This document shows, in pieces, positions 468 to 32,909 of a stretch of 64,000 nucleotides of DNA. The translations under genes were made by a program, and so were the position numbers. The notes below the pieces were generated by a model. That model was not told the origin of the DNA, searched no databases, and worked only from the letters and a program-made list of their open reading frames with translations. Source of the DNA: an uncultured Bacteroidales bacterium (GTDB lineage: Bacteria > Bacteroidota > Bacteroidia > Bacteroidales > Bacteroidaceae); NCBI GenBank assembly GCA_902776455.1, contig CACYQI010000011.1, positions 28,866 through 92,865 of the forward strand. The letters run 5' to 3'. How positions within the stretch are numbered: the stretch's first letter is position 1; each line of letters opens with the position of its first letter.

Positions 468-2135
468 ATGGATCTAAACGACACTGTCAGCAAAGCAAAG
501 GAAAAAGACGCCAAGGCATTCGCCTCGCTCTATGCGGCCTATCAGCCCCAGATGCTCGGCGTGTGCATGAACATCATCCGCGAGGACAAGCAGACCGCCA
601 GCGACCTTGTGCACGACGCCTTCATCCTGGCCTTTGTCTCGCTGGACAGCCTAAAGGACAACCATAAATTTGGGGAGTGGCTGACGACAATCGTCAGGAA
701 CGTCTCGCTGAAACACGTCAGTCGCAGGGAACGGGAACACCTGCTTTCCGTCAGCTCGCTCAGGGAGGACGATGCCGTGTTCACCGCCTCCTCGCCGTCG
801 CCCGAAGAGGAGCTTTACTACCAGGAACTGCTCCAGCTCATCAGCCGTCTGCCGGAAGGTTACGGCAAGGTTCTGCGACTCTCGGCCGTCGAAGGCTTTT
901 CCCACAAGGAGATTGCCGAGATGCTCGGCATTGCGCCCCATAGCTCGTCGTCGCAGTTGTCGCGTGCCAAGCGTCTGCTCAGGCAGTTGATGAGCCGCAG
1001 GGCAGTCGGCGTGACGGCCCTCCTGCTACTTCCCCTCTTGTCGTATCTCGTTTTCAGGAAGAAAGGAAGCCCCCTCCCCGCCCCCCCTTTGGGGGAGTGC
1101 CCCATTGAAGAGCAAGGGGAAAGTCCCCTTTCCCGAAGAGGAGAGGCTTCCGCGGCGAGCTCTTCCCCATCGAAGAAGGTCGAGAGGAGGCCGCAGACGA
1201 ATGGCGTCGATTCTGTCCCCGAAACCAGTGAAGACGTTTTTATCACCCGAGTCGAGGACGACTCTGTCGGCATACAAGTAGTCGATTCTGCCAAGGAAAG
1301 AGACATCCTGCCGCCAGAGCCGACGCCCCACGAGGTCATCCGCCAGAAGGAGAAACGGCAGTGGCAACTGGCCGTGAGCGGTAGCTTCGGACAGGCTCAG
1401 ACACAGAGCGGAGGCCTTCTTCTCGCCACAAACACGCCGCCATCACCTTCCGTAGGCTCGGACGTTCCAGAGCCAGACGCACCCACGTTTGTTATTCCAG
1501 ACTACATCAACACTTGGGAGGACTATGCCCAATACCTCCGCTTCCTCTCCTCGAGCACTGCCAACATCCCTGCCGACACCACCTGCCTCATCAGTATTGC
1601 CGACCACAACACCGGCGAAATAATTCAACGCGAGCATCACGACATGCCTATCACATTCAGCTTCTCGCTGTCGAAACAGATAGCAAAGAGGTGGAGCATC
1701 GAGACCGGTCTGCAATACTCCCTGCTCGAGTCCAGCTTCCAGATGGGCGAGAACGGCTACAGCGTCAGCACCCGACAGCAGGCGCACTACCTCGGGGTGC
1801 CTTTCCGCGCGTCGTACCGATGGCTGGAGTACAGGAACCTCTCGGCCTACAGCTCGCTCGGCGTCATGTTGCACATCCCCCTTGCGGGCAGTAGGCAGAC
1901 GCAGTACACGGTGGGCTGGCAGAGCCTCAATGCAGACAAGCAGTACTTCACGCCCGCTTTGCAATGGCAGACCGGCGTCAGCTTCGGCCTGCAGTACAGG
2001 ATAGCACCGCACACCAGTCTCTTCGCCGAACCCTCCTTCAACTGGTTCATCCCCAACGGCAGCGAGACGCATACGTCCTGGACAGAGCATCCCTTCATGT
2101 TCACCTGTCCGTTCGGAGTGAGAGTCAGCTGGTAG
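468..2135 (+). CDS. Membrane-tethered ECF sigma factor fused to an outer-membrane barrel
   Basis: One uninterrupted ~555-residue chain. Residues ~20-85 match sigma region 2 (ASDLVHDAFILAF) and ~125-175 match region 4 (a helix-turn-helix around FSHKEIAEMLGIAP). Residues ~179-196 form one hydrophobic membrane segment followed by RKK. Next comes a ~200-residue low-complexity, Pro/Ser/Glu-rich linker, then a C-terminal ~150 residues with alternating beta strands like PorT/OmpA-type barrels. I chose the ATG at 468 because the upstream in-frame codons (396-467) are the shared box. The layout matches the dual-membrane-spanning anti-sigma (Dma) proteins of Bacteroides, but with the sigma factor itself at the cytoplasmic end. 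Residues ~199-232 are encoded by a GC-rich hairpin repeat. Domain calls are by eye. Confidence 0.85.
   Translation: MDLNDTVSKAKEKDAKAFASLYAAYQPQMLGVCMNIIREDKQTASDLVHDAFILAFVSLDSLKDNHKFGEWLTTIVRNVSLKHVSRREREHLLSVSSLREDDAVFTASSPSPEEELYYQELLQLISRLPEGYGKVLRLSAVEGFSHKEIAEMLGIAPHSSSSQLSRAKRLLRQLMSRRAVGVTALLLLPLLSYLVFRKKGSPLPAPPLGECPIEEQGESPLSRRGEASAASSSPSKKVERRPQTNGVDSVPETSEDVFITRVEDDSVGIQVVDSAKERDILPPEPTPHEVIRQKEKRQWQLAVSGSFGQAQTQSGGLLLATNTPPSPSVGSDVPEPDAPTFVIPDYINTWEDYAQYLRFLSSSTANIPADTTCLISIADHNTGEIIQREHHDMPITFSFSLSKQIAKRWSIETGLQYSLLESSFQMGENGYSVSTRQQAHYLGVPFRASYRWLEYRNLSAYSSLGVMLHIPLAGSRQTQYTVGWQSLNADKQYFTPALQWQTGVSFGLQYRIAPHTSLFAEPSFNWFIPNGSETHTSWTEHPFMFTCPFGVRVSW
1065..1151. repeat. Hairpin repeat inside the sigma-barrel reading frame
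   Basis: The left arm starts GGAAGCCCCCTCC and the right arm ends GAGGAGAGGCTTCC, enclosing smaller C/G stems. The repeat stays in frame and encodes Pro/Gly/Glu/Arg-rich residues just outside the membrane segment. It belongs to the same GC-rich family as the copies in cca, rpoN, tsaB, rimM and purN. Confidence 0.75.
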
Positions 2136-2916
2136 CGGACGCGTGCCTCTGCAACAGATACCAGCAGCTGGAGCTGAGAAAGTTCCTCAGGTAAGGCATG
2201 GCGGAAGCCCATCGGGGCAGTCGGCATGGCGGGAGGTTGAACTTTACCTTGTAGTGCGGATTGATGAAGAAGAGCGACCTGTCTGCTATCGTCAGGCCCG
2301 ACGAGCCGATAAGTCGCTCGAAGGACTCGATCGTCGTGCGCGTTTCTCTGATTGACAGCAGTTCCTGGAGGCAATCGTCGCTCTCGCCTGCCCAGTGGAT
2401 GATGCCTTTGTAAAGCGGCAAGGGCAGGAGGTGAACGAATGGCAGATGGGCGAGAAACATGTTCCTGCAGATTTGTTGATGTCCTCCGAAAGGCATTTGC
2501 CAAGCAGGAAACGACACGAAGGCGACGCCGTCTTCGGCCAACAGACTGCTCACGAGCGAGAGCAGACGCGCTTTGTCGGCCACGTGTTCCACGACGTCGT
2601 GGCAGATGATAACGGAGAACTTCTCCCCAGGCTGAAGTCGAAAGATGTCCTGGCAGACGAAGCGTCCCTCCGCCTGTGCTTTTGCAAAGAACTCCCGAGC
2701 CTGTCTGATTCGCACGCGAGCGATGTCGATGCCTGTCACTTCAAGCCCTGCCCTGGCGAAGGGAAGCAGATTGCCGCCCTCGCCACACCCTATCTCCAGC
2801 ACCTTCTGACCTGTTCCGATTTCGTGCCAACGGCTGACGTAAGGCATGAAGTAGCAACGGCTCGTCTCTGCCAACTCGTTGAAGTAGCGGCTCCTGTTGA
2901 TGTGTCTGTCCTGCAT
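2125..2916 (-). CDS. Class I SAM-dependent methyltransferase
   Basis: A 263-residue protein with a Rossmann-type methyltransferase core. Motif I is VLEIGCGEGGNLLPFA (~residues 39-54), the acidic strand-2 end is VTGIDIA, and the motif IV region is FSVIICHDVVEHV. The HDVVEHV form is typical of UbiE/COQ5-like and sugar- or lipid-modifying methyltransferases, but the substrate cannot be told. It has no signal peptide, so it should be cytoplasmic. It is convergent with the sigma-barrel gene and the two stop ends overlap by 11 bp. Its upstream side faces the CotH gene, with the second copy of the shared box between them. Confidence 0.85.
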   Translation of the reverse strand: MQDRHINRSRYFNELAETSRCYFMPYVSRWHEIGTGQKVLEIGCGEGGNLLPFARAGLEVTGIDIARVRIRQAREFFAKAQAEGRFVCQDIFRLQPGEKFSVIICHDVVEHVADKARLLSLVSSLLAEDGVAFVSFPAWQMPFGGHQQICRNMFLAHLPFVHLLPLPLYKGIIHWAGESDDCLQELLSIRETRTTIESFERLIGSSGLTIADRSLFFINPHYKVKFNLPPCRLPRWASAMPYLRNFLSSSCWYLLQRHASATS

Positions 2917-2998
2917 ATCTGTGTTCGTTTGGTTCCGATTGTCGTTAACATTGATGTCGGGTGCCGACAGATGACTGCACGGACGCAGTTTCCCCGAA

Positions 2999-3038
2999 GG
3001 CGATGCAGTCTTTTGCCAGGGGGATATATCTATATATA
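2999..3038 (+). promoter_or_regulatory. Shared upstream box, copy 2
   Basis: This copy reads GGCGATGCAGTCTTTTGCC, then GGATATATCTATATATA. It differs from the copy at 392-429 at only a few positions. It sits in the 177-bp gap between the divergent methyltransferase and CotH genes. A -33-like TTTG (3012-3015) lies inside the box. Confidence 0.5.
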
Positions 3039-3093
3039 ATAATGCAGACAGACAGCAGCATTTACTATTTATTCATTTTCAATTATCCGAAAG

Positions 3094-3864
3094 ATGAAAA
3101 GACTCCTTTGTTTGATAGCGCTTGCCGGCGGCAGCACGGCAGCAATGGGCGGGGCGGGGCACTCGCTCAAGTTCACGGAAGTATGCGTGGCGAACATCGA
3201 CCAGACGATTGACTTCTCCCATAACTACGGCAGCTGGGTGGAGGTTTGCAACAATGGCGAGGCCGACGTGTCGCTTGACGGATGGTACATCAGTGACGAC
3301 GCGACGAACCTGACAAAGCATCGACTCAGCGGCTACGGCGTGTTGAAGCCGGGCGAATATCGTGCCATCTTCTTCGACCACAATGCAGCCGACGGGGTGT
3401 TTGGACCAGACGCGTCGAGGCAGGTGAGGTTTAAGCTCAGCCGGAAAGGTGGGTCGCTCTTCCTTTCGCAAGACGGCACCTCGGCCGACCTCTCGCTTTC
3501 CTATCCGCCTTCCATCCCGCGATGCAGCTACGCGAGAGTGCATCTTCAGGCCAACGAATGGCAACACCAGGGCTTGCCGACGCCGGGAGAAGCCAATGCC
3601 AGTCTGTTCGCGTCGGAGCAGTTGCCGCCTCCCGAGGTCAGCTGCGACACCCGGCTCTTCACCGAAGCATTCGACGTCCGGGCCGACTTCCCTGCAGGAG
3701 CGACGCTTCGCTACACTTTAGACGGCAGCACGCCAACGCTCACGAACGGACAGACAAGCACCGACGGCCGCTTCCACATCAGCGCGACAACCGTGCTCAG
3801 GCTGCGTCTGTTCGCTCCCGAAAGGCTTCCCAAGCGGCATCGTCACGCGCACGTATATATATAA
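3094..3864 (+). CDS. CotH-family surface protein, N-terminal part (frameshifted)
   Basis: A signal peptide (MKRLLCLIALAGGSTAAMG) is followed by a lamin-tail domain (~25-150; KFTEVCVANIDQT, GSWVEVCNNGEADVSLDGWYISD) and a chitobiase-C-terminal-like domain (~195-250; LRYTLDGSTPTLT). The frame ends abruptly at 3864. The next frame, from ~3812, continues the expected sequence (LPKGFPSGIVTRTYIYKDKD) straight into the CotH domain. Removing one C from the CCC at 3817-3819 restores one continuous ~940-residue protein. Either the gene is broken or a base was added in sequencing; nothing here suggests programmed slippage. Confidence 0.75.
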   Translation: MKRLLCLIALAGGSTAAMGGAGHSLKFTEVCVANIDQTIDFSHNYGSWVEVCNNGEADVSLDGWYISDDATNLTKHRLSGYGVLKPGEYRAIFFDHNAADGVFGPDASRQVRFKLSRKGGSLFLSQDGTSADLSLSYPPSIPRCSYARVHLQANEWQHQGLPTPGEANASLFASEQLPPPEVSCDTRLFTEAFDVRADFPAGATLRYTLDGSTPTLTNGQTSTDGRFHISATTVLRLRLFAPERLPKRHRHAHVYI

Positions 3865-5936: not shown

Positions 5937-5959
5937 TGGCGAGAAAGAAAAGATAAAAA

Positions 5960-6066: not shown

Positions 6067-7248
6067 ATGGTGCGAAGAAAGACACACGAAGTAAAGATAG
6101 GAAAGCTGCGCATCGGTGGCGAAAACCCCGTGGCTGTGCAGAGTATGACGACTTGTTCGACCCTCGATACGGAGGGCTGCATCGAGCAAGCCATACGCAT
6201 CATCGAGGCAGGCGGACAGCTGGTTCGCCTCACCACTCAAGGCACGCGCGAGGCCGAGAACTTGCGCAACATCAAGGCCGGACTGACAGCACGCGGCTAT
6301 GGCGACGTGCCGCTCTGTGCTGATGTACATTTCAATCCGAATGTTGCCGATGTGGCTGCGACCATTGTGGAAAAGGTGCGCATCAATCCGGGCAATTACG
6401 TTGATCCCGCCCGCCAGTTCAAGACGCTGGAATACACAGACGAGGAGTACAAGCAAGAGTTAGAAAGACTGGACGAACGCTTCTGCCGCTTCCTTAATAT
6501 ATGTCGCGAACACGGCACAGCCATCCGCATCGGCGTGAACCACGGCTCGCTCTCCGACCGCATCATGTCGCGCTATGGCGACACGCCCGAAGGCATCGTC
6601 GAGTCGTGCATGGAGTTCCTCCGTATTGCTGAGCGCGAACAGTTCCGCGATGTGGTGGTGAGCATCAAGGCCTCGAACACGGTCATCATGGTGCAGAGCG
6701 TTCGCCTGCTCTGTCAGCAGATGGAGAAGGAAGGCATGGACTACCCCTTGCACCTCGGCGTGACGGAAGCTGGCGAGGGCGAGGACGGCAGACTGAAGAG
6801 TGCTGTGGGCATCGGTGCCTTGCTTATCGACGGCATTGGCGATACCATCAGAGTGTCGCTCAGCGAAGAGCCGGAATGTGAGATTCCTGTTGCCCAAAGC
6901 ATACTGCAGGCAGCCCGCGTACAGATGCACAAGACGGAGTACATCTCCTGCCCGGGCTGCGGCCGCACGCTCTATGACCTGCAGGACACCATACGCCGCA
7001 TCAAGGCCGCCGTCGAAGAGAAAGCCAAGACCGACGCTCGCTACCGCACACTCAAGATAGGCATCATGGGCTGCATCGTCAACGGCCCGGGCGAGATGGC
7101 AGATGCCGATTATGGCTACGTGGGGGCAGCAAGAGGCAAAGTCTCTTTATATAAGAATAAGGAATGTATTGAGAAGAACATCCCTGAGGAAGAAGCCGTG
7201 GAGCGCCTCATCCAGTTCATCGACAAGGACCTTCAGAGTAATTCATAA
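6067..7248 (+). CDS. ispG: IspG (GcpE), HMB-PP synthase, short form
   Basis: IspG reduces MEcPP to HMBPP with a [4Fe-4S] cluster in the MEP isoprenoid pathway. The N-terminal TIM barrel (~1-275) has the long-form signature of plants, Chlamydiae and Bacteroidetes (LTTQGTREAENL, LHLGVTEAGEGEDG, GDTIRVSLSEEPE). The C-terminal domain carries the cluster cysteines (SCPGCGRTLYDLQ, GIMGCIVNGPGEMADADYGYVG). At 393 residues it lacks the ~200-250-residue A* insertion normally found between these parts in that subfamily; VSLSEEPECEIPVA passes directly into QSILQAARVQMHKTEY. All visible cluster residues are kept. The last residues (LQSNS) come from the following AATTCATAATTC tract. Confidence 0.93.
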   Translation: MVRRKTHEVKIGKLRIGGENPVAVQSMTTCSTLDTEGCIEQAIRIIEAGGQLVRLTTQGTREAENLRNIKAGLTARGYGDVPLCADVHFNPNVADVAATIVEKVRINPGNYVDPARQFKTLEYTDEEYKQELERLDERFCRFLNICREHGTAIRIGVNHGSLSDRIMSRYGDTPEGIVESCMEFLRIAEREQFRDVVVSIKASNTVIMVQSVRLLCQQMEKEGMDYPLHLGVTEAGEGEDGRLKSAVGIGALLIDGIGDTIRVSLSEEPECEIPVAQSILQAARVQMHKTEYISCPGCGRTLYDLQDTIRRIKAAVEEKAKTDARYRTLKIGIMGCIVNGPGEMADADYGYVGAARGKVSLYKNKECIEKNIPEEEAVERLIQFIDKDLQSNS

Positions 7249-7338
7249 TTCACAATTCATAATTCACCATTCATAATTCACCATTCATTTTTACGTCCAT
7301 AAGAACTTCTTGTTTACTCTTAACATTCCATGTTTATA
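7249..7338. repeat. AATTCATAATTCAC tract and direct repeat, left copy
   Basis: A run of the word AATTCAYAATTCAC is followed by ACTTCTTGTTTACTC and TTAACATTCCAT. The same order recurs at 8200-8283, so the KilA-N gene is bracketed by direct repeats of ~85 bp. Confidence 0.6.
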
Positions 7339-7339
7339 T

Positions 7340-8143
7340 ATGGCAAAGATAACAGTACAGAATACGCAGATAACGGTTGTGACTATCAATGAGCGCGATT
7401 ACATTTCGCTCACTGACATGGTGCGCAATATAGAGAATGGTCTCGCTCTCATTGAGAAATGGCTGCGCAACAAAAATACCATTGAGTTTCTGGGCATTTG
7501 GGAAGAGATGTACAATCCCTATTTTAATTCCCCCGAATTCGAGGGAATTAAAAATGCAGCAGGGCTTAACCGTTTTATTTTGTCGGTGAAGCAGTGGGTG
7601 GAGAAGACCAACTCCCGTGGAATTATTGCCAAAGCCGGGCGTTATGGTGGCACCTACGCTCACAAGGATATTGCCTTTGAGTTTGCTACTTGGGTATCAC
7701 CTCAATTCAAGCTCTATCTTATTCAGGAGTTTGAGCGAATGAAGAGTGATGAGCAAAAGCAGCTTGGATGGACAGCGAAGCGTGAACTGTCGAAGATTAA
7801 CTATCGCATTCATACGGATGCCATCAAGCAGAACCTTATCCCTGAAGAGGTGACGGCAGCACAGGCCGGCATCATCTATGCTGAGGAAGCGGACGTGCTC
7901 AACGTAGCCATGTTCGGACAGACAGCCAAGCAATGGCGCGAAGCGCATCCTGAACTGAAAGGAAACATCCGTGACTATGCTTCCATCAACGAACTCATTT
8001 GCCTAGCAAATATGGAGAATATCAATGCAGTCCTCATTGATGAGGGTGTGCCGCAGGGCAATCGCCTTGTGCGCCTCAATCAGATTGCTATCAATCAGAT
8101 GCGTGTGTTGGAGAACGACGATAATAGGAACTTGTTAAAATGA
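7340..8143 (+). CDS. KilA-N domain protein
   Basis: The start is taken at ATG 7340 (MAKITVQNTQ), because the ten upstream codons of the longer frame belong to the flanking repeat. Residues ~15-130 form a KilA-N/APSES-like DNA-binding domain (INERDYISLTDMVRNIE, GRYGGTYAHKDIAFEFATWVSPQFKLYLIQEFER). The C-terminal part (~140-267) is the usual helical partner domain of Bacteroidetes KilA-N proteins. KilA-N genes are typical of phages and other mobile elements. Codon use is more A/T-rich than in neighbouring ispG, which agrees with transfer. Its role here is unknown. Confidence 0.85.
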   Translation: MAKITVQNTQITVVTINERDYISLTDMVRNIENGLALIEKWLRNKNTIEFLGIWEEMYNPYFNSPEFEGIKNAAGLNRFILSVKQWVEKTNSRGIIAKAGRYGGTYAHKDIAFEFATWVSPQFKLYLIQEFERMKSDEQKQLGWTAKRELSKINYRIHTDAIKQNLIPEEVTAAQAGIIYAEEADVLNVAMFGQTAKQWREAHPELKGNIRDYASINELICLANMENINAVLIDEGVPQGNRLVRLNQIAINQMRVLENDDNRNLLK

Positions 8144-8199
8144 CTTGAGTGGATAGGACATAACATAGAAACGACATAAGTTAGGCAAGCGTCCCAAGG

Positions 8200-8283
8200 G
8201 CAATTCATAATTCATAATTCACAATTCATAATTAATCTTAACGCCAAAAACTTCTTGTGCATTCTTAACATTCCATTATGATT
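8200..8283. repeat. Direct repeat, right copy, after the KilA-N gene
   Basis: An AATTCATAATTCAC word run is followed by ACTTCTTGTGCATTC and TTAACATTCCAT. It is the counterpart of 7249-7338. Confidence 0.6.
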
Positions 8284-10994: not shown

Positions 10995-11024
10995 CAACAG
11001 TCTGGATTGGCATTGAAAACTTGC

Positions 11025-11079
11025 GATGAGATACGATGAGATTTGATGAGATTTGATGAGATTTGATGAGATTTGAAAA
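11025..11079. repeat. 10-bp tandem repeat GATGAGATTT
   Basis: Five GATGAG units occur at exactly 10-bp spacing (11025, 11035, 11045, 11055, 11065), followed by GATTTGAAAAG. It lies upstream of the VirE-type gene. The one-helical-turn period resembles an iteron or operator array, but function is unproven. Confidence 0.75.
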
Positions 11080-11172
11080 GATAATTAACGATTTGAAAAC
11101 TTCCGCAAAGTTACGGCACTCTCATTGCGGTCTACGAATAAAAGTCCCTCCAAAAAAACAAAAAGTACGCTG

Positions 11173-14595: not shown

Positions 14596-15297
14596 ATAGA
14601 GACGAGCACGAAGGTCTGTTCTGTGGCTCTGAGCGAGAACGGACAGCTCATTTTTCACAAGGAAGACCTCGACGGGCCGAACCATGCTTCCGTGTGTGGT
14701 GTCTTCGTCGATGAAGCCCTCTCCTTCGCCAACTCCCACGCCATCCCTGTCGATGCCGTTGCCGTCAGCGAAGGACCTGGCAGCTACACCGGGCTGCGCA
14801 TCGGCGTGTCGATGGCAAAGGGCGTGTGCTATGGGCGCGACCTTCCGCTGCTTGCCGTGCCGACGCTCAAACTGCTTTGCGTCCCTGTCCTGCTCAGTCC
14901 GTCGTTCCCCCCTCCTTCGGAGGGGACGGGGGAGGCTGAACCTTTGCTCGTCCCCATGATAGATGCCCGCAGAATGGAGGTGTATAGCGCCGTCTATGAC
15001 CGTGCGCTCCACGAAGTCCGCCCCGTCGGTGCCGACATCGTCGAGGCCGACACCTATCTGCCTTACCTCGAGGAACATCCCGTCTTCTTCTTCGGCGACG
15101 GAGCCGCGAAGTGCAAGGATGTCATCCATCACCCCAATGCCCACTTCCTCGACGGCATCATGCCGCTGGCAAAGTGGATGTTCCCCCTGGCAGAACGCTC
15201 GCTCCACCTCGGCGAGACGCGCGACGTGGCATACTTCGAGCCTTTCTACTTCAAAGAATATGTGGCCGGGAAGCCACACTCACCGCTCCTCTCCTAA
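14596..15297 (+). CDS. tsaB: TsaB, t6A biosynthesis protein, with unclear start
   Basis: TsaB is the dimerising partner of TsaD in tRNA threonylcarbamoyladenosine synthesis and is usually essential. Family sequence begins at 14596 (IETSTKVCSVALSENG) and continues with VSEGPGSYTGLRIGVSMAKGVCYG. There is no ATG, GTG or TTG before it: the preceding codons are TAA CAT ATA. The first ordinary start is GTG 14623, which would remove the conserved ETSTKVCS strand. The A/T word tract directly upstream seems to have replaced the first codons. A GC-rich hairpin (14906-14940) encodes PPPSEGTGEAEP in mid-protein. It begins the tsaB-DUF4290-murA-rimM-dxr-rseP block. Confidence 0.88.
   Translation: METSTKVCSVALSENGQLIFHKEDLDGPNHASVCGVFVDEALSFANSHAIPVDAVAVSEGPGSYTGLRIGVSMAKGVCYGRDLPLLAVPTLKLLCVPVLLSPSFPPPSEGTGEAEPLLVPMIDARRMEVYSAVYDRALHEVRPVGADIVEADTYLPYLEEHPVFFFGDGAAKCKDVIHHPNAHFLDGIMPLAKWMFPLAERSLHLGETRDVAYFEPFYFKEYVAGKPHSPLLS
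14906..14940. repeat. GC-rich hairpin repeat inside tsaB
   Basis: CCCCCCTCCTTCGGAGGGG followed by ACGGGGGAGGC. It is in frame and encodes PPPSEGTGEAEP, which interrupts an otherwise TsaB-like sequence. Confidence 0.7.
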
Positions 15298-17271: not shown

Positions 17272-17431
17272 CCCCTTTAGTGGGAATAAGGACCCCCTAA
17301 CCCCCTTTAGGGGGAATAAGGACCCCCTAACCCCCTTTAGGGGGAAAAATAGTAAATAAAGAAATAGTAAATGAAGAGATGGTAGAAGCCAAAGGAAATG
17401 AAGCACTCCCCCTAACGGGGGATGGGGGGGC
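17268..17431. repeat. Tandem C-rich repeat between murA and rimM, entering rimM
   Basis: Three copies of ACCCCCTAACCCCCTTTAG-GGGGAATAAGG lie in tandem, the first being degenerate. After a short AAATAGTAAAT tract, another half hairpin (CTCCCCCTAACGGGGGATGG) falls inside the first codons of rimM. Confidence 0.75.
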
Positions 17432-17978: not shown

Positions 17979-19178
17979 ATGGTAAACGATAAGATAAGAA
18001 AGATATGCATATTAGGCTCTACGGGTAGCATCGGCACTCAGACGCTCGAAGTCATCGCCGAGCACTCGGACCTCTTCGAGGCATACGTGCTGACGGCCGG
18101 TTCCAACGCTGACTTGCTCATCCGGCAGGCCAAGCAGTTCCGGCCCCAATGCGTGGTCATCGCCGACGAAAGCAAGTACGACTACGTCCGCGAGGCCTTG
18201 AAGGACGAACCGATACAGGTCTATGCGGGAGCCGACGCCCTCTGCCAAGTGGTGCAGATGGGGCCGGTGGACATCGTGCTGACGGCCCTTGTGGGCTTCA
18301 GCGGTCTGCGCCCCACCATCAGCGCCATCGAGGCAGGCAAGCCCATCGCCCTGGCCAACAAGGAGACGCTCGTTGTGGCCGGCGAACTCATCACCCGCCT
18401 CTGCCTGGAGCACAAGGTGCCTCTGTTGCCCGTCGATAGCGAGCACAGCGCCATCTTCCAAAGCCTCATGGGCGAAGTAAGCCCAATAGAAAAACTCATC
18501 CTGACAGCCAGCGGCGGCCCCTTCCGCACGTTCACGCTCGACGAGCTGCAGGGCGTCACACCCGCCCAAGCCCTGAAGCATCCCAACTGGGACATGGGGG
18601 CGAAGATCACCATCGACAGCGCCTCGATGATGAACAAAGGCTTCGAAGTCATCGAGGCCCGCTGGCTCTTCGACGTCACGCCGGAGAAGATACAGGTCGT
18701 CGTGCATCCGCAGAGCATCCTGCACAGTGCGGTCCAGTTCGAGGACGGCGCCGTGAAGGGGCAGATGGGCATGCCCGACATGCGCGTCCCCATACAGCTG
18801 GCCCTCTCCTACCCCTTCCGCCTCCGCAGCAGCTTCCCGCGCATCGACTGGTGGGACATGAAGAACCTCACCTTCGAGAAGCCAGACCCCGAGAAGTTCC
18901 GCTGCCTCCAGATGGCCTACGAAGCCATCAAGATGGGCGGCAACGCAGCCTGCATCGTCAACGCCGCCAATGAAGTGGCGAACCTGGCCTTCAGGCAGGA
19001 ACGCTGCAGCTTCCTCCGGATGGCCGACGTCATCGGGGAAACCTTGCAGAGAATGCCGCATCAGGAAAAGCCTTCCCTGCAGGACTACCTCGACTGCGAC
19101 AGCGAGTCGCGACGGATGGCCGAGGACATCATCAAAAACACTCCACGGAGCATCGGCTTACGCTCCACGGAGCATTGA
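17979..19178 (+). CDS. dxr: Dxr (IspC), DXP reductoisomerase
   Basis: Catalyses DXP to MEP with NADPH, the committed step of the MEP pathway that IspG (6067) later completes. The NADPH loop is CILGSTGSIGTQTLEVI; metal and substrate motifs are ALANKETLVVAGE, PVDSEHSAIFQ, LTASGGPFR and TIDSASMMNKGFEVIEA. The start at ATG 17979 (MVNDKIRKICILG) fits the family better than ATG 17964, which adds VIDI from the repeat. The last ~11 residues (TPRSIGLRSTEH) and the stop codon come from the CTCCACGGAGCATCGG array that runs to 19246. Confidence 0.95.
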   Translation: MVNDKIRKICILGSTGSIGTQTLEVIAEHSDLFEAYVLTAGSNADLLIRQAKQFRPQCVVIADESKYDYVREALKDEPIQVYAGADALCQVVQMGPVDIVLTALVGFSGLRPTISAIEAGKPIALANKETLVVAGELITRLCLEHKVPLLPVDSEHSAIFQSLMGEVSPIEKLILTASGGPFRTFTLDELQGVTPAQALKHPNWDMGAKITIDSASMMNKGFEVIEARWLFDVTPEKIQVVVHPQSILHSAVQFEDGAVKGQMGMPDMRVPIQLALSYPFRLRSSFPRIDWWDMKNLTFEKPDPEKFRCLQMAYEAIKMGGNAACIVNAANEVANLAFRQERCSFLRMADVIGETLQRMPHQEKPSLQDYLDCDSESRRMAEDIIKNTPRSIGLRSTEH

Positions 19179-19246
19179 CCTTTCCTCCACGGAGCATCGG
19201 CCTACGCTCCACAGAGCATCGGCCCCTCCTCCACGGAGCGTCGGAC
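19137..19246. repeat. CTCCACGGAG array at the end of dxr
   Basis: Five CTCCACGGAG/CTCCACAGAG units are joined by CATCGGCYTACG or CATTGACCTTTC. The CTCC-AC-GGAG palindrome is the same word seen at 9490, 23385, 36160, 43770 and 47295. Confidence 0.85.
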
Positions 19247-21347: not shown

Positions 21348-23051
21348 ATGCATTTAGTTGACGCCATACAGGAATACGACAGCTTCCGCCAGCAAACTCG
21401 CCGGACGGATTCGCAAAGCCTCATCGACAACCCGCTGCTGCGTCGCATCGGGCAGAAGGCCGACGCGCTGGGCCTGGAGTGCTACGTCGTAGGCGGCTAC
21501 GTGAGGGACATCATCCTGGAGCGGCCTTCGAAGGACATCGATGTGGTGGTAGCAGCCCCCTCCCCCGTCCCCTCCCCCGAGGAGGAGGGGAGAAACGGAA
21601 ACGGCCAACTTAGCGAAGAAAGCCTCCCTCCTCGGGGGGAGGTTGGAGGGGGGCTGGCTTCCGGTCCGGGCATCCGCCTTGCCCAAGCCCTCGCCAAGGA
21701 CATGGGGCGGGGCGCCCACGTCAGCGTCTTCCGCAACTTCGGCACGGCGCAACTCAAGTGGCACGACCAAGAGATTGAGTTCGTCGGCGCAAGGCGCGAG
21801 AGCTACCAGCGGGACAGCAGGAAGCCTATCGTGGAAGACGGGACGCTCGACGATGACCTCCACCGACGCGACTTCACCATCAATGCCCTCGCCTTCTGCC
21901 TCAACGCAAAACGCTACGGCGAGTTCATCGACCTCTTCGAAGGACTGCTCGACCTCGAGGACGGCATCATCGCCACGCCACTCGACCCCGACATCACCTT
22001 CAGCGACGACCCGCTGCGCATGATGCGATGCATACGCTTCGCCACACAACTGCGCTTCCAGATAGAGGAAGAGACAGCGGAAGCCCTCAAGCGCAACGCC
22101 GAACGCATCAAAATCATCTCGCAGGAACGCATCACCGACGAGCTGAACAAAATCATGATGGCACCTGCGCCCAGCATCGGCTTCATCGAGCTGAGCCGCA
22201 GCGGCCTGCTGCCCATCATCCTGCCCGAAGTGGCTGCCCTCGAAGGCGTTGAGACACGCAACGGCCGCGCCCATAAGGACAACTTCTACCACACGCTCGA
22301 GGTGCTGGATAATGTGTGTCAGGAGCAAGGGGCAAGGAGCAAGGAGCAGGAGATTAGTGACTGCTCCCAAGGCTTTTCCGAAGGCAATCCTCTTGCCCCT
22401 TGCCCCTTGCCCCCTGCTCCTCTTTTTTTGCGTTGGGCTGCCCTGCTGCACGACATCGGCAAGCCCCGCAGCAAGCGATGGGACAACCAGACTGGCTGGA
22501 CGTTCCACAACCATAACTACATCGGGCAGAAGATGGTGGCGCCGCTCTTCCGCCGCATGAAGCTGCCGACGGACGAACGCATGGCTTACGTCGAGAAGCT
22601 CGTGGGGCTGCACATGCGGCCTATCGCCATAGCCGACGACGAAGTGACGGACAGCGCCGTACGCCGCCTGCTCTTCGAGGCCGGAGAGGACATCGACGAC
22701 CTGATGCGCCTCTGCGAAGCTGACATCACAAGCAAGAACCGCGAGAAGAAGAAGCGTTTCCTCGAGAACTTCCAGCTTGTGCGCGAGAAGCTCATCGACT
22801 TGCAGGCACGCGACAACTACCGCACTTGGCACAACCCCATCTCGGGCGAGGAAATCATGCAGACCTTCGGCCTCAAGCCCTGCCGACAAATAGGTCAGCT
22901 GAAGCAAGCCGTAAAGGATGCCATCTGGGACTCAGTCATTCCCAACGACCACGACGCGGCATTCCAGTTTATACTTGAGAAAGCAAAGGAGATGGGCTTG
23001 GGGACCCCACCCCTAACCCCTCCCCTCGGAGGGGAGGGGAAAGGATGCTGA
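21348..23051 (+). CDS. cca: CCA tRNA nucleotidyltransferase with two repeat-encoded insertions
   Basis: Adds CCA to tRNA 3' ends. Family parts are GGYVRDIILERPSKDIDVVV (catalytic DxD, ~49-68), FRNFGTAQLKW, RRDFTINALAFCL, DPLRMMRCIRFATQL and an HD domain (HDIGKPRSK, ~368). At 567 residues it is ~90 longer than the usual ~480. The excess is three repeat-encoded segments: ~70-107 (SPVPSPEEEG...LPPRGEVGGG) inside the nucleotidyltransferase palm, ~326-358 (EQGARSKEQE...PLAPCPLPPA) just before the HD motif, and the last ~16 residues (PPLTPPLGGEGKGC). The frame is kept throughout, so the protein is probably functional. Confidence 0.95.
   Translation: MHLVDAIQEYDSFRQQTRRTDSQSLIDNPLLRRIGQKADALGLECYVVGGYVRDIILERPSKDIDVVVAAPSPVPSPEEEGRNGNGQLSEESLPPRGEVGGGLASGPGIRLAQALAKDMGRGAHVSVFRNFGTAQLKWHDQEIEFVGARRESYQRDSRKPIVEDGTLDDDLHRRDFTINALAFCLNAKRYGEFIDLFEGLLDLEDGIIATPLDPDITFSDDPLRMMRCIRFATQLRFQIEEETAEALKRNAERIKIISQERITDELNKIMMAPAPSIGFIELSRSGLLPIILPEVAALEGVETRNGRAHKDNFYHTLEVLDNVCQEQGARSKEQEISDCSQGFSEGNPLAPCPLPPAPLFLRWAALLHDIGKPRSKRWDNQTGWTFHNHNYIGQKMVAPLFRRMKLPTDERMAYVEKLVGLHMRPIAIADDEVTDSAVRRLLFEAGEDIDDLMRLCEADITSKNREKKKRFLENFQLVREKLIDLQARDNYRTWHNPISGEEIMQTFGLKPCRQIGQLKQAVKDAIWDSVIPNDHDAAFQFILEKAKEMGLGTPPLTPPLGGEGKGC
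21555..21668. repeat. GC-rich hairpin repeat inside cca (insertion 1)
   Basis: CCCCCTCCCCCGTCCCCTCC and CCGAGGAGGAGGGG pair locally, and the far end CCTCCTCGGGGGGAGG and GGAGGGGGGCT pairs with the left arm. It is 114 bp = 38 codons, with no stop in the reading frame. Confidence 0.85.
22323..22421. repeat. Word hairpin GCAAGGA / TCCTTGC inside cca (insertion 2)
   Basis: The left arm is GAGCAAGGGGCAAGGAGCAA plus GGAGCAGGAG; the right arm is CTTGCCCCTTGCCCCTTG plus CCCCCTGCTCC. A second, unrelated repeat family has thus entered the same gene. It is 99 bp = 33 codons. Confidence 0.85.
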
Positions 23052-23066
23052 GATTCATTCATAAAG
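23002..23066. repeat. 65-bp direct repeat, copy 1 (end of cca)
   Basis: GGGACCCCACCCCTAACC, a TCCCCTCGGAGGGGAGGGG hairpin and GGATGCTGAGATTCATTC. It includes the cca stop codon and recurs at 23221-23286. Confidence 0.85.
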
Positions 23067-23796: not shown

Positions 23797-25227
23797 ATGA
23801 GTCAGAGAAACCAACAGATACAGGAACAGTCGCAGACGCAAGGGCAGGTGCAGGTGCAGCAGATGTTGCCGCAGCAAGTGCTGCTCGTCCGCCTGACAGA
23901 GATGCCCGTCGAGGCGCTACAGCACCGCGTGGAGCTGGAGCGCATGGAGAACCCTTGGCTGGAAGCCTCGCCCGACCCCTCCGAAGGGGAGAATGGCGGA
24001 GAGGGAGGCGATTCGTTCTCCCCTCCTTCTGAGGAGGCGGGGGAGGCTGCTGAAGCTCTCTACGACTACCGCTCGGAGGACGATGTGCCCGACTTCATCA
24101 ACGGCCCCAGCCACAGCAACAATGCGGCCGAGTTCATGGCCTACGATGATACGCTTTCGCTAACCGACCGTCTGCGCGAACAGATGGCAGACTTCGAGCT
24201 TACCGACCACGAGAAGGAACTCATGGAGTACCTCATCGGCTCGCTCGACGAAGACGGGCTTCTGGGGAAGTCGCTCGCCATCCTTGCCGACGAGGCAGAG
24301 ATTTACCAGGGCATCAACACGAGTGCCGAGGAGCTGGAGAAGGTACTGAAGGTGCTCCAGCAGTTCGACCCTCCCGGCATCGGAGCGCGTTCGCTGCAGG
24401 AATGCCTGCTCATACAGGTCGAGAGGGACGAAAACATCCCCGGCCGCGACCTGCTCATCAAGATGTTGGGCAAGTACTTCGACGACTTCATCCACAAGCG
24501 CTGGCAGCGGATAGGGCAGCGGCTGCACATCGGCGAAGCACAGGTGGAACAGCTGCAACGCGAGATTCTGCGGCTCAACCCGCGGCCCGGAGGCTCCGTC
24601 GGAGCCAAGACTGCCGACCGCACACAAAGCATCCAGCCCGACTTCCTGGTCGATACCGACGAGGACGGCACCATCACCGTCACCCTCACCCGTGGCAACC
24701 AGCCGTCGCTCATCATCAGTCCCGATGCCGACGGACAGAAGGACGCCTTCGTCCGCCAGTACGTGGAACGGGGCCAGATGTTCATCACAGCCCTTCAGCA
24801 ACGCGCCGAGACGATGACACGCACCATGCAGGCCATCGTCAAACTGCAGAAACCCTTCTTCCAGACTGGCGACGAGACACAGCTGCGCCCCATGCGGCTC
24901 GAAGATGTGGCTAACGTCACCGGCTACGACATCAGCACCATCAGCCGCGTTGCCAACAGCAAGTACGTCGAGACAACCTTCGGCACCTATCCGCTGAAAT
25001 GGTTCTTCACGCACCGTGCCACGCAGAACAAAGAGGGCGACGACGTCACGGCGCGGCAATTGATGGCGAGCCTGCGCCGCCTCGTCGATGAGGAGGACAA
25101 GCGGCAGCCCTACAGCGACGAGCGACTCACGCAGTTGCTTCAGCAGGAAGGCTTCAGCATAGCCCGCCGCACCATCGCCAAGTATCGGGAACAAATGGGC
25201 ATCCCCGTGGCAAGAATGAGGAAGTAG
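23797..25227 (+). CDS. rpoN: RpoN, RNA polymerase sigma-54 factor
   Basis: 476 residues. Region I is Gln-rich (~5-55; QMLPQQVLLVRLTEMPVEALQHRVELERMENPWLEA). The core-binding region spans ~125-290 (LREQMADFELTDHEKELMEYLIGSLDEDGLL). A central helix-turn-helix includes EDVANVTGYDISTISRVANSKYV. The RpoN box is at the C-terminus (ARRTIAKYREQMGIPVARMRK). It needs AAA+ enhancer-binding activators to open promoters. Residues ~58-83 are encoded by a GC-rich hairpin repeat that falls in the variable acidic Region II, where extra sequence is tolerated. Confidence 0.96.
   Translation: MSQRNQQIQEQSQTQGQVQVQQMLPQQVLLVRLTEMPVEALQHRVELERMENPWLEASPDPSEGENGGEGGDSFSPPSEEAGEAAEALYDYRSEDDVPDFINGPSHSNNAAEFMAYDDTLSLTDRLREQMADFELTDHEKELMEYLIGSLDEDGLLGKSLAILADEAEIYQGINTSAEELEKVLKVLQQFDPPGIGARSLQECLLIQVERDENIPGRDLLIKMLGKYFDDFIHKRWQRIGQRLHIGEAQVEQLQREILRLNPRPGGSVGAKTADRTQSIQPDFLVDTDEDGTITVTLTRGNQPSLIISPDADGQKDAFVRQYVERGQMFITALQQRAETMTRTMQAIVKLQKPFFQTGDETQLRPMRLEDVANVTGYDISTISRVANSKYVETTFGTYPLKWFFTHRATQNKEGDDVTARQLMASLRRLVDEEDKRQPYSDERLTQLLQQEGFSIARRTIAKYREQMGIPVARMRK
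23968..24046. repeat. GC-rich hairpin repeat inside rpoN
   Basis: Left CCCCTCCGAAGGGGAG, right CTCCCCTCCTTCTGAGGAGG plus CGGGGGAGG. It is in frame and encodes PSEGENGGEGG and PPSEEAGEAA. Confidence 0.75.
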
Positions 25228-28408: not shown

Positions 28409-28413
28409 GGGCG

Positions 28414-28650: not shown

Positions 28651-28703
28651 TCTTTTCGGTCCCGACACAATAAGCGGGCACTTCTTTCCGTTATTATATT
28701 GGT

Positions 28704-29861: not shown

Positions 29862-29909
29862 TAAGGCATTTTTTTCCACACAATTCTTCACCTTTTCAAC
29901 TTTTTTTCG

Positions 29910-29917
29910 TAATTTTG
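29910..29917 (+). promoter_or_regulatory. -7 box TAATTTTG for DUF177-rpmF
   Basis: The -7 box ends seven bases before the DUF177 ATG at 29925, so the transcript has almost no leader. Confidence 0.55.
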
Positions 29918-29924
29918 CAGCCCG

Positions 29925-30428
29925 ATGGAAAAACTGGACGGATACATAGTCGATTTGAAAGGCATGCAGAGCGATACTGTGTCGTACCACTGGCAGGCCG
30001 CAACCGACTTCTTCTCCGCCGTTCAGGGACCGGAGATAAAGCAGGGCCTGCTCGATGTAGCACTACGGGTGAAACGGACATCTTGCGCCTACGAACTGAC
30101 GTTCCAGCTCAAGGGCGAAGTGGAAGTGACGTGCGACCGCTGCCTTGAACCTATGTCCCAACCCATCGAGGCAGAGTGCCTGCTCCGCGTCAAGATGGGC
30201 GACGAGTTTGCCGACGACGGCGACGTGGTCACCATCCCCCAACGGGAAGGCACCATCAACGTGGCATGGAACATCTACGAGTTCGCAGCTCTGCAGATAC
30301 CCTTGCGGCACGTACACGCGACGTGCGAACAGCTCTATTCAGACTCCTCCGAGGAGGAGAGAATCGACCCGCGATGGGCTGAACTGAAGAAAGCAATGAA
30401 CAGTAAAACAGTAAACAGTAAATCGTAA
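29925..30428 (+). CDS. DUF177 (YceD-like) protein
   Basis: 167 residues of the DUF177 family, placed before rpmF in most bacteria. It contains a conserved CDRCL motif (VEVTCDRCLEPMSQPIEAECLLRV). YceD is linked to 23S rRNA accumulation and ribosome assembly. The acidic C-terminal part (YSDSSEEERIDPRWAELKK) is usual. The last residues (NSKTVNSKS) come from an AACAGTAAA word tract. rpmF starts 21 bp after the stop. Confidence 0.9.
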   Translation: MEKLDGYIVDLKGMQSDTVSYHWQAATDFFSAVQGPEIKQGLLDVALRVKRTSCAYELTFQLKGEVEVTCDRCLEPMSQPIEAECLLRVKMGDEFADDGDVVTIPQREGTINVAWNIYEFAALQIPLRHVHATCEQLYSDSSEEERIDPRWAELKKAMNSKTVNSKS

Positions 30429-30449
30429 ATCATTAAATAACAAATAACT

Positions 30450-30629
30450 ATGGCACATCCTAAAAGAAGACAGTCCAAGACTAGGACCCTCAAAAGAAGA
30501 ACACACGACAATGCTGTAGCTCCCGCACTGGCAGTATGCCCCAACTGCGGCGAGTTCCACATCTATCACACCGTTTGCCCTGCCTGCGGATACTATCGCG
30601 GCAAGGTAGCCATCGAAAAGGAAGCTTAA
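30450..30629 (+). CDS. rpmF: Ribosomal protein bL32
   Basis: 59 residues starting MAHPKRRQSKTRTLKRRTHD. It has the bL32 zinc ribbon with cysteines at 30, 33, 43 and 46 (CPNCGEFHIYHTVCPACGYY). It is part of the 50S subunit. It lies between DUF177 and fabH in the conserved order. A word hairpin follows the stop. Confidence 0.97.
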   Translation: MAHPKRRQSKTRTLKRRTHDNAVAPALAVCPNCGEFHIYHTVCPACGYYRGKVAIEKEA

Positions 30630-30631
30630 TA

Positions 30632-30735
30632 AAAGTTGAAGAGTTTGAAAGGTGATAAGGTAAAAAGGAACAATAGTTGAAACACGTTTTTCAATTCTTC
30701 GCCTTTTCGCCTTCTCACCTTTTTCGTACTTGCTA
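30632..30735. repeat. Word hairpin AAAGGTGATAAGG / CCTTCTCACCTTT
   Basis: The left arm is GAAAGGTGATAAGGTAAAAA; the right arm is CGCCTTTTCGCCTTCTCACC plus TTTTTCG, with a loop around ACACGTTTTTCAATT. It fills the rpmF-fabH gap and may also act as a terminator. Confidence 0.7.
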
Positions 30736-30736
30736 A

Positions 30737-31828
30737 ATGGAAAAGATAAATGCCGTAATAACCGGCGTGGGCGGGTATGTGCCCGACTATATCCTTGACA
30801 ATGAGGAGATGTCGCGGATAGTAGATACCAGCGACGAGTGGATAATGGAACGTATCGGCGTCAAGACACGCCACATCCTCAAGCCCGAACAGGGCAGCGG
30901 CACGTCGTACCTGATGACACGGGCCGTGCGGCAGCTCCTGCGAAAGACGGAAGCCGACCCCAGCTCCGTGGAACTTGTCATCTGTGCCACCACTACGCCC
31001 GACTATCATTTCCCCTCAACGGCATCCCTCGTCATCGGCAACTGCGGCCTCACCAGCGCCTTCGGCTTCGACATGGAAGCTGCCTGTGCAGGCTTCCTCT
31101 ATGCCCTCGAAGCCGGTGCAAACTACATACGCTCAGGCCGATACAAGCGCATCATCGTCTGCGGAGGCGACCACATGAGCTCCATGACCAATTACGAGGA
31201 CCGCAACTCGTGCCCCATCTTCGGCGACGGAGCAGCATGCGTCATGATGGAAGCCACAACAGAAGAAGTGGGACTCATCGACGGCTACTACCGCGTAGAT
31301 GGGCAGGGCTTCCAGAACCTCCACATGGCAGCCGGCGGCTCCGCCAAAATGCCAAGCCACGAGACTGTGGATGCACGTCAACACTTCGTCTATCAGGAAG
31401 GACGCGCCGTCTATAAGCACGCCGTCCTCGACATGACCTCCGCCGTCAAGACCATCGCTAAGCGCAACAACCTCTCGGGAGACGACATCACCTGGCTCGT
31501 GCCACATCAGGCCAACATCAACATCGAAGTATCCGTAGCCAACCGCATCGGCATCGACGAAAAGCACGTCATGGTCAACATCGACCACATGGCCAACACC
31601 TCCGGCGGCACGCTGCCCCTCTGCCTGTGGGAGTACGAACCGCAGCTCAAGAAAGGCGACAAAATCGTCTTCACCGCTTTCGGTGCCGGCTTCACCTGGG
31701 GCGCAAGCTACATGATCTGGGGCTACGACGGTGCTCAGGAAGCTGCCAAAGAGCCTGCACAGTTCTATAAGGAAGGCCTCATGACACGCGAAGAATGGAG
31801 AAAATTAAGAATGAAGAATGAAGAATGA
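30737..31828 (+). CDS. fabH: FabH, 3-oxoacyl-ACP synthase III
   Basis: 363 residues; condenses acyl-CoA with malonyl-ACP to begin fatty acid synthesis. The catalytic triad is Cys117 (EAACAGFLYALEAG), His257 (WLVPHQANIN) and Asn287 (HMANTSGGT). The family body ends near LMTREEWRKL; the last residues (RMKNEE) and the stop are encoded by the AGAATGAAGAATGAAG word of the following hairpin. Confidence 0.95.
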   Translation: MEKINAVITGVGGYVPDYILDNEEMSRIVDTSDEWIMERIGVKTRHILKPEQGSGTSYLMTRAVRQLLRKTEADPSSVELVICATTTPDYHFPSTASLVIGNCGLTSAFGFDMEAACAGFLYALEAGANYIRSGRYKRIIVCGGDHMSSMTNYEDRNSCPIFGDGAACVMMEATTEEVGLIDGYYRVDGQGFQNLHMAAGGSAKMPSHETVDARQHFVYQEGRAVYKHAVLDMTSAVKTIAKRNNLSGDDITWLVPHQANINIEVSVANRIGIDEKHVMVNIDHMANTSGGTLPLCLWEYEPQLKKGDKIVFTAFGAGFTWGASYMIWGYDGAQEAAKEPAQFYKEGLMTREEWRKLRMKNEE

Positions 31829-31925
31829 AGAATTTGCTGCCGCTTCTAAAAGCATTAAATAATTTGCGGAGAAACATGGCGGCAGCAAATTCTTCACTCT
31901 TCATTCTTCATTCTTCATTATAATT
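31803..31925. repeat. Long word hairpin ATGAAGAATGAAGAA / TTCTTCATTCTTCAT
   Basis: The left arm is AGAATGAAGAATGAAGAATG plus AAGAATTTGCTGCCGC. The right arm starts GCGGCAGCAAATTCTTCACT and continues CTTCATTCTTCATTCTTC. They are near-perfect complements over ~35 bp. The left arm contains the fabH stop and the right arm ends four bases before era. Confidence 0.9.
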
Positions 31926-32807
31926 ATGTTCAAGTCCGGCTTTGTTAATATCGTAGGCAACCCGAATGTCGGGAAGTCAACCCTTATGAATCTCCTCGTC
32001 GGGGAACGCATCTCTATTGCTACCTTCAAGGCACAGACCACACGTCACCGCATCATGGGCATCCTCAACACACCCGAGATGCAGATTTGTTTCAGCGATA
32101 CACCGGGCGTCCTGAAGCCCAACTACAAGCTGCAGGAGCAGATGCTCCAGTTCAGCGAGAGTGCCTTGCAGGACGCCGACGTACTCCTCTACGTCACCGA
32201 CATGGTGGAGACGCCCGACAAGAACAGCGACTTCCTCGACAAGGTGAAGCGCATGACCGTCCCCGTCCTCGTCCTCATCAACAAGATAGACCTCAGCGAC
32301 CAGAAGGCTCTGACTGAGAAGGTAGAACTTTGGCACGAGGCTTTGCCCGAAGCGGAGATAGTGCCTATCAGCGCCCTGCACCGCTTCAACGTCGATAACG
32401 TGCTGAAGCGCATCGGGGAACTCCTGCCCGAATCGCCCGCCTACTTCGACAAAGACCAGTGGACCGACAAGCCTGCACGCTTCTTCGTCACCGAAATCAT
32501 CCGCGAGAAGATACTCCTCTACTACGACAAGGAAATACCCTACAGCGTGGAAGTCGTAGTGGAGCAGTTCAAGGAGACAGACCGGAACATCCGCATCAGC
32601 GCTGTCATCTTCGTGGAGCGCGAGAGCCAGAAGGGTATCATCATCGGGCACGGAGGCGTTGCCCTCAAGCGCGTCAGCACCGAGGCACGCAAGAGCCTGG
32701 AGAAGTTCTTCGGCAAGAGCATCTTCCTCGAAGTGTTTGTCAAGGTCGATAAGGACTGGCGCCAGAGCGACCGCGCCATGAAGGCCTACGGATACAACTT
32801 GGATTGA
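31926..32807 (+). CDS. era: Era GTPase
   Basis: 293 residues. GTPase motifs are G1 GNPNVGKSTL, G2 (TTRHRIMGI), G3 DTPG and G4 NKID. A C-terminal KH domain spans ~215-293 (ESQKGIIIGHGGVALKRVSTEARKSLEKFF). Era binds the 16S rRNA 3' end and checks 30S maturation. It is in the fabH-era order common in Bacteroides. A C-rich hairpin with purN's start codon inside follows. Confidence 0.96.
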   Translation: MFKSGFVNIVGNPNVGKSTLMNLLVGERISIATFKAQTTRHRIMGILNTPEMQICFSDTPGVLKPNYKLQEQMLQFSESALQDADVLLYVTDMVETPDKNSDFLDKVKRMTVPVLVLINKIDLSDQKALTEKVELWHEALPEAEIVPISALHRFNVDNVLKRIGELLPESPAYFDKDQWTDKPARFFVTEIIREKILLYYDKEIPYSVEVVVEQFKETDRNIRISAVIFVERESQKGIIIGHGGVALKRVSTEARKSLEKFFGKSIFLEVFVKVDKDWRQSDRAMKAYGYNLD

Positions 32808-32909
32808 CCCCCTAACCCCCTTTAGGGGGGGAATTATTTATAATGAAAGGTGAAAAATGGAAAGTGAAAGAATAACCTGTTCTCCCCCTAAAGGGAGAAG
32901 GGGGGTCTG
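32806..32909. repeat. C-rich hairpin spanning the era-purN junction
   Basis: The left arm GACCCCCTAACCCCCTTTAG and GGGGG, and the right arm CCCCCTAAAGGGAGAAGGGG and GGTC, are reverse complements with few mismatches. Between them is a TGAAAGGTGAAAAATGG word tract. The purN ATG (32857) lies in the loop and the right arm is translated. Confidence 0.85.

Follow-up and report, generated by a model that had tools for sequence, protein, structure and literature searches.

Can palindromic repeats lie inside conserved reading frames without breaking them, and if so, how do they come to be there? The question is raised by a 64,000-nt stretch of DNA from an uncultured Bacteroidales bacterium (the window, G000:C11:28866-92865, where G000 is a 3.39-Mb draft genome of 94 contigs), which is crowded with repeat families: GC-rich hairpins, a 22-nt repeat and tandem words of 7–10 nt. 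Coding palindromes are best known from Rickettsia. We found that the elements are multi-copy, that they lie both between and inside genes, that the copies inside genes are in frame, and that the same spots in housekeeping proteins hold different families in different species. We consider it highly probable that several unrelated, non-autonomous mobile palindrome families have spread in a Bacteroidales clade and survive only where their length, frame and peptide are tolerated.

In G000, 96 copies of the core GAGGGGAGGGG lie on one strand and 71 on the other, compared to 20 and 28 for the reversed control, and the repeat is therefore in excess above chance. Syntenic DNA from 11 relatives of the same genus was taken for gene alignments. 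In the window, cca (at two places), tsaB and rpoN contain segments that consist of in-frame repeat DNA from dispersed multi-copy families and that are missing or different in many of the 11 relatives (coordinates in Table 1). In the legible rows of the alignments, every length difference is a multiple of three for tsaB (5/5), cca place 1 (9/9), cca place 2 (10/10) and rpoN (7/7); for the stretch past the dxr stop into intergenic DNA, this is so in only 4/9. The claim of an earlier note on this DNA, that repeats sit in frame within conserved genes, is thus real, with the corrections given below. The alignment with relatives that the note proposed gave filled and empty orthologous sites in cca, tsaB, aroE and others and, where this was tested, the repeat-free relatives carry short native segments instead of the same peptides.

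The extra segments of cca lie at about residues 70–105 and 325–355. The place 1 insert maps between the adjacent residues 51 and 52 of PDB 4wby; G005, G036 and others are short here, G013 and G053 hold a REPIN-like element (see below) and G051, G045 and G047 hold word types. Place 2 is 87 nt longer in the window than in G005. The window and G027 have a GGAGCAA-word hairpin at this place; G013 has a palindromic doublet, G020 a GAAGAAT-word hairpin, and G024 and G012 another doublet; the site is short in G005, G035, G008, G052 and G053, the last with an apparent remnant of a doublet end. Only short native sequence is present at both places in G005, G035 and G008. The palindrome that forms the C-terminal tail of the window's cca is in none of the relatives aligned.

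For tsaB, 7 of 10 aligned relatives retain a short native segment similar to GKEELPED, and three (G013, G053 and G036) are repeat-like. Among eight relatives aligned for rpoN, the linker is of a similar palindrome type in G027 and G053 and is shorter or different in the other six, several of these being word-like by eye. One 37-nt hairpin is common to tsaB (14902–14938) and rpoN (24013–24049), at 89% identity and in the identical reading frame. A single GC-rich hairpin family running through the window genes is too narrow a picture; the hairpin at cca place 2 is built of words and belongs to a different family. The note was right that several unrelated repeat families are present, these being doublets, word hairpins and other palindromes.

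Element families and the sites they share

Two families were defined. The first, a REPIN-like element, is an inverted doublet of ~88 nt with the ends GCCTCACCCC...GGGGTGAGGC. With partial matches included, a 76-nt doublet from the G013 cca gene gave 50 matches in G000, 42 in G013, 25 in G053, 11 in G020, 2 in G027 and 1 in G036. Of 11 near-full copies examined, ten are in frame within cca (at two places), aroE, genes for a MacB/FtsX permease and a histidine kinase, uxaC and xseA; the remaining copy, on contig C2 of G000, is outside any recognisable gene. The xseA insert of G000 has an end in common with the doublet and, by eye, a changed interior. As a separate observation, a protein of RGIG4772 with two ABC_tran stretches (L196 6327–8000, − strand) bears two doublet-like peptides.

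The terminal pattern GCCTCWCCCC-N44-74-GGGGWGAGGC was found in 12 of 101 genomes of the genus, and its reversed control in one; these pairs are terminal inverted repeats of the kind used to define miniature inverted-repeat transposable elements. The 22 distinct strict copies in the genus (24 loci, including some orthologous pairs; strict-terminus copies only, L090 and L112 not qualifying) are 17 in frame in genes, 3 noncoding, 2 at a gene edge and 0 out of frame. Twelve hand-picked loci from outside the genus were also classified, and the unpicked counterpart to these is the Bacteroidota loci of a species-genome collection. The pattern matched at least 116 stretches of that collection, 80 of them listed, in many phyla; many have weak inner complementarity and can be chance. 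Among the matches listed were 28 Bacteroidota loci, of which one had no match to the search pattern and four were too near an end; the 23 classified are 13 in frame, 7 noncoding, 3 at an edge and 0 out of frame, and four repeat strict-copy loci of the genus. In-frame doublets outside the genus were seen in LeuS of Mucilaginibacter polytrichastri and in one TsaD (both Pfam-confirmed), with a second protein TsaD-like by sequence. In one Cytophagaceae metagenome-assembled genome (MAG), two of the three classifiable copies are noncoding and one is at an edge, so gene occupancy is not universal.

The second family, the word hairpin, is a hairpin of ~80 nt with arms of GGAGCAA heptamers. The 80-nt copy from the G000 aroE gene gave 90 matches in G000, 68 in G065 and 45 in G027. 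In 18 further genomes of the genus there were 80 in G013, 89 in G020, 79 in G045, 38 in G035, 26 in G090, 19 in G005 and 10 in G053, with 1–7 in six genomes and none in five. The strict form is present in G000; a draw of 120 other genomes of the family, just six of them from the same genus, had none. Among 63 full-length copies from three genomes, 32 are in frame in genes, 14 are at a gene edge and one, in G027, has coding flanks on one strand with no open through-frame. The 41 copies of G000 (from the window and stretches fetched from the matches listed) comprise 20 in frame, 9 at an edge, 1 between genes, 11 noncoding and 0 with same-strand flanks and no through-frame; at the ten best loci each of G065 and G027, 6 of 12 and 6 of 10 copies are in frame. 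Random points in the word-hairpin loci were coding in 572 of 995 cases (57%). The codon scorer behind the frame calls was trained on the window only and returned 85/85 on its own training genes.

The same sites are filled by different families. At aroE site B, G053 and G013 have a doublet (+90 nt), G000, G065 and G027 a word hairpin (+72, +72 and +66, respectively) and G035 a third palindrome (+63), and eight others are short; at site A, 5 of 14 have an insert. LeuS holds a word hairpin in G027 and G065, a GTTGACAA-word hairpin in G053, a GC palindrome in G024 and a doublet in Mucilaginibacter, while in G000, G013 and G036 small single hairpins remain by eye. TsaD holds word hairpins in G027 and G013, a GC palindrome in G000 and doublets in two other records. 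Four kinds of insert were seen in the rsmF-like gene and two each in recG and purL (the names recG, rnr, hisH, hisS, purL, rsmF-like and thiD were assigned by eye from sequence). Insert-bearing genes confirmed with Pfam are AroE, XseA, MacB/FtsX, PLD, a sigma-54 regulator, M3 peptidase, DNA alkylation repair, histidine kinase, UxaC, TsaD, LeuS and an ABC ATPase.

Ten further sites were queried by joined flanks in 12 genomes, and all 32 split matches listed with both halves keep the frame by coordinates. Nine of these are rnr. Three of the four rnr linkers examined had no hairpin excess over mononucleotide shuffles, and neither had the hisS segment of G000; the rnr split matches are therefore not all inserts. 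From the alignments, the insert sites are probably loops. In LeuS of Mucilaginibacter, the insert is close to where the editing domain starts, at a position occupied in 7nua by a short segment of its own. At aroE (G000/G065), thiD and cca place 2, the same-site copies are most alike, and independent insertion of the same variant is not favoured. It is favoured at tsaD, where likeness between the G027 and G013 copies is 0.78 and the G027 copy scores up to 0.87 against a copy located elsewhere. Separately, in G086 (L117 2–2521, − strand) a palindrome-derived linker connects an M3 peptidase to a deoxycytidylate deaminase domain within a single open frame of 840 aa, which may be a gene fusion made by a repeat.

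Frame use and silent-site divergence

None of the six frames of the translated word hairpin contains a stop, yet a single frame and orientation accounts for 24 of the 32 copies in genes. The usage of the six frames (24, 4, 2, 2, 0 and 0) parallels their grand average of hydropathy (−1.04, −0.74, −0.47, 0.05, 0.20 and 0.71), orthologous copies being counted separately so that these are not 32 independent events. Frame use thus tracks the hydrophilicity of the peptide. In the REPIN-like element, the third frame of the translated sequence holds a built-in stop, and this frame is used by none of the 26 in-frame copies, nine of which come from hand-picked loci.

We compared silent sites between inserts shared by two genomes and their flanks. 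Four-fold sites differed at 21 of 184 positions in the inserts compared to 348 of 955 in the flanks (12 pairs, omitting the macB set and the G065/G027 aroE pair), with the drop beginning at the insert edge. Recombination over a wider segment is not supported as the cause, since the ten insert-adjacent codons already diverge like the rest. The ratio of replacement to silent divergence (pN/pS) was 0.50 in the inserts and 0.14 in the flanks (14 pairs). Because similarity was the means by which most copies were found, ascertainment accounts for part of the low silent divergence. For cca place 2, whose pair was first identified from the window and by synteny, there were still 0 silent and 2 replacement differences, with a flank pS of 0.39.

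Origin of the elements and their relation to known systems

In the explanation that we prefer, that of several mobile palindrome families filtered by what the host protein tolerates, the families would take the form of inverted doublets of GC-rich hairpins, hairpins with arms of tandem heptamer words, and single-hairpin remnants. Landing may be near random. Hydrophobic and out-of-frame insertions would be purged, and permissive loops, as the sites appear to be from the alignments, would therefore accumulate elements, which may later be reduced to single hairpins with the frame kept, or be expanded by tandem duplication. The mover could conceivably be an HUH/Y1-type transposase acting in trans on single-stranded hairpins.

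Several results weigh against this explanation. With about one in six frames tolerated and 57% of random points coding, a simple model predicts that ~18% of copies would be in genes compared to the 32 of 63 observed, and landing or loss may therefore not be random; the excess reflects either faster loss of intergenic copies, non-random entry or a biased sample. Truncated genes could hide among the 14 word hairpins at gene edges. At the 25 of 36 loci where insert sequences were extracted, the inserts usually replace native sequence and their edges are not clean, so that no clean target duplication is readable. The low silent divergence of shared inserts is not predicted for neutral passengers. 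Neither the doublet nor the word hairpin was found at any of 19 Y1_Tnp loci (~2–3.3 kb each, from incomplete genomes), G005 and G020 bear word hairpins yet had no Y1_Tnp detected (G020 being 62% complete), and two types of Y1_Tnp carry their own, different hairpins.

Some of these results bear equally on whether the elements are classical REPINs (inverted doublets of repetitive extragenic palindromic sequences, REPs) moved by a REP-associated tyrosine transposase (RAYT, TnpA-REP) of the same genome, which we think unlikely but a real possibility. Passages of PMC3116915 and PMC6006769 describe REPINs as inverted REP doublets with a spacer, and our element likewise consists of two inverted hairpins with a spacer, is multi-copy and has a common spacer in aroE and cca. 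Moreover, Y1_Tnp matches were present in 11 of the 20 genomes tested, and an open reading frame has the motifs NHLH/WQ/YIHQNP, similar to subclass 2.6 in the motif list of PMC6006769 as far as that section goes. On the other hand, none of the 19 Y1_Tnp loci has these repeats nearby or copies flanking a RAYT gene as in a REPtron, the 2.6-like genes are flanked by other hairpins, and by eye the outer ends of the doublet (only these being considered) carry neither GTAG nor GTGG, where a section of PMC6006769 gives GT[AG]G as the rule for the foot of a REP hairpin. The Pseudomonas fluorescens REPINs are also described as extragenic in part of PMC3116915. A RAYT or REPtron link, sought in the 20 genomes and 19 loci, was not found, and two exact-pattern scans of viral contigs gave no matches.

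The search also turned up hairpins of other types. IS200-like Y1 genes (L292, L293 and L295) are flanked by CCCAGGGC-GCCCTGGG-type hairpins and two subclass 2.6-like RAYT genes (L081 and L298) by GGCGGATT...AATCCGCC-type hairpins; both sets are candidate REPtrons of other families. Two long open reading frames (L082 1093–2439 and L299 1236–2616) have weak Y1_Tnp matches and in-frame tandem peptide repeats (GENAAKVHGEG), the L082 frame having no Pfam hit at 1e-5.

If nothing moved, length-variable segments would have made their repeats locally by slippage and template switching while selection held the frame. The heptamer arms are indeed tandem repeats, the word unit is tandemly amplified in frame in hisH of G027 and some sites have small single hairpins only. 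We nevertheless disfavour this account as improbable, given that 80-nt elements with the same spacer occur at up to 94–96% identity in unrelated genes and also outside genes, and that doublets in aroE and cca have their spacer in common. Retention of the inserts for a useful DNA hairpin or peptide would fit the ~3-fold lower four-fold divergence, which stops at the insert edge, and the dominance of a single frame. It is very improbable to us, as unrelated families swap at one site, many species have no insert where others have one, hydrophilicity explains the frame use and a search by similarity favours conserved copies. Most of the genomes are draft assemblies, several titled MAG, which could suggest an assembly or annotation artefact; the same inserts, however, recur in separate assemblies (xseA in G053 and G020; aroE in G053, G013 and RGIG4467) and the LeuS insert is in the strain record of M. 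polytrichastri RG4-7, making an artefact exceedingly improbable. A further reading, which we hold to be doubtful, is that the housekeeping-protein spots are shared landing pads where unrelated palindromic families replace one another, even across orders (LeuS and TsaD). The elements would then be coding modules with a dominant orientation and frame and with DNA more conserved than the host gene, and insertion or maintenance would therefore not be blind to coding context, through, for example, hairpin-guided entry at pre-existing hairpins or words, or homogenisation between copies.

The earlier note likened these repeats to Rickettsia palindromic elements (RPEs), described in parts of PMC6649704 and in section 15 of PMC3733652 as palindromes of several families that lie in frame in unrelated conserved genes and add tolerated peptides. 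The likeness is one of behaviour: the Bacteroidales elements are dispersed, multi-copy and in frame in unrelated protein genes, with empty orthologous sites in relatives. Membership is not established, the comparison being by description only; here the phylum is another, the elements are inverted doublets or have heptamer-word arms, and unrelated families reuse the same sites. Part of PMC3733652 also describes intragenic GTAG/CGTC REPs, short palindromes and dimers inside conserved genes as here, of which the dimers encode 20–30 aa, with one same-site case, recB in two Xanthomonas. Our elements differ in that no GTAG tag is seen at the outer ends and in same-site reuse at several genes. Compared with the REPIN/RAYT system, which shares the inverted doublet and spacer, 32 of 63 word hairpins and 17 of 22 doublets are in host genes rather than extragenic, and no RAYT association was found; a passage of PMC6006769 does report in-frame REPs in the RAYTs' own gene for subclass 2.4 of Bacteroidetes and Cyanobacteria. 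The heptamer repeats of Xanthomonas and Nostoc are likewise dispersed 7-nt tandem words, under-represented in coding regions according to part of PMC4692102, whereas here the words build hairpin elements that are read in frame. Nematomorpha mitochondria resemble our case in the gain and loss of hairpins in coding genes and, in a few, in hydrophilic inserted residues; the repeats there, in mitochondrial genes, are long, perfect and inverted, and the relevant part of PMC6649704 does not present them as insertion elements.

Intragenic in-frame REPs and RPEs (PMC3733652, PMC6649704) and in-frame REPs in subclass 2.4 RAYT genes (PMC6006769) are therefore already in print, at least in the sections cited. 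In the open-licence literature searched, we found no report of Bacteroidales coding palindromes of several families that reuse the same spots. This clade has them in LeuS, TsaD, Cca and AroE and, judged by eye, in RecG, PurL and further proteins; filled and empty orthologous sites are both numerous, and the case is richer than the Rickettsia quirk that it resembles. Its genomes serve as a natural mutagenesis map showing where ~30 foreign residues are tolerated in housekeeping enzymes, they allow frame, orientation and hydrophobicity to be tested directly as filters on mobile DNA, and they let protein tolerance of mobile DNA be watched. It is also a warning for annotation, as such segments in annotated proteins are repeat DNA.

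Other repeat features of the window

Insertion within a gene, proposed by the note for six genes, stands for cca, tsaB, rpoN and the linker of the sigma factor-barrel gene; in the other two, the repeat is N-terminal. The sigma-barrel linker is repeat-rich in the window and G053 and shorter in G035. In rimM, the repeat touches only the first codons after the predicted start and the fold is unaffected. The purN repeat lies in an N-terminal extension, the gene in relatives starting close before the conserved fold; the likely purN start codon sits within a GACAAC word array in G005, G036 and G008 (L426, L428 and L430). Word repeats were said to end both dxr and fabH, which is correct for fabH; the dxr tail PRSIGLRSTEH and its stop derive instead from the 22-nt repeat, and this tail is present in none of 10 aligned relatives.

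Table 1. Repeat features in and beside window genes (window coordinates)
Feature	Position	Strand	Description	Basis
Sigma factor-barrel gene (396–2135), linker	1066..1152	+	GC-rich hairpins in frame	Alignment with relatives
tsaB	14896..14942	+	Single hairpin in frame, peptide SPSFPPPSEGTGEAE, family D16	
rimM	17382..17429	+	Short palindromic N-terminal extension past predicted start	Alignment
dxr	19138..19246	+	22-nt repeat array giving last codons and stop	Alignment
cca, place 1	21555..21662	+	Palindromic insert, ~36 codons	Alignment with relatives, comparison with PDB 4wby
cca, place 2	22322..22416	+	GGAGCAA-word hairpin in frame, family distinct from GC-rich hairpin	
cca, 3′ end	22996..23066	+	Palindrome giving C-terminal codons and stop, extending into intergenic region, family D8	
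rpoN, linker	23962..24062	+	Hairpins in frame, family D16	Alignment
fabH	31802..31834	+	GAAGAAT words forming about the last 5 codons and stop	
purN	32857..32908	+	Hairpin within window-specific N-terminal extension	

Tandem arrays are also present in the window at 36047–36136, 11015–11082 and 54570–54757, with units of 9, 10 and 51 nt, respectively. On either side of a KilA-N gene (7310–8143, within 7239–8250 of the window) is a direct repeat made up of AATTCAT words and a similar tail. G053 is without this gene and its two matches overlap on a single repeat copy, as if a cassette had moved between word repeats.

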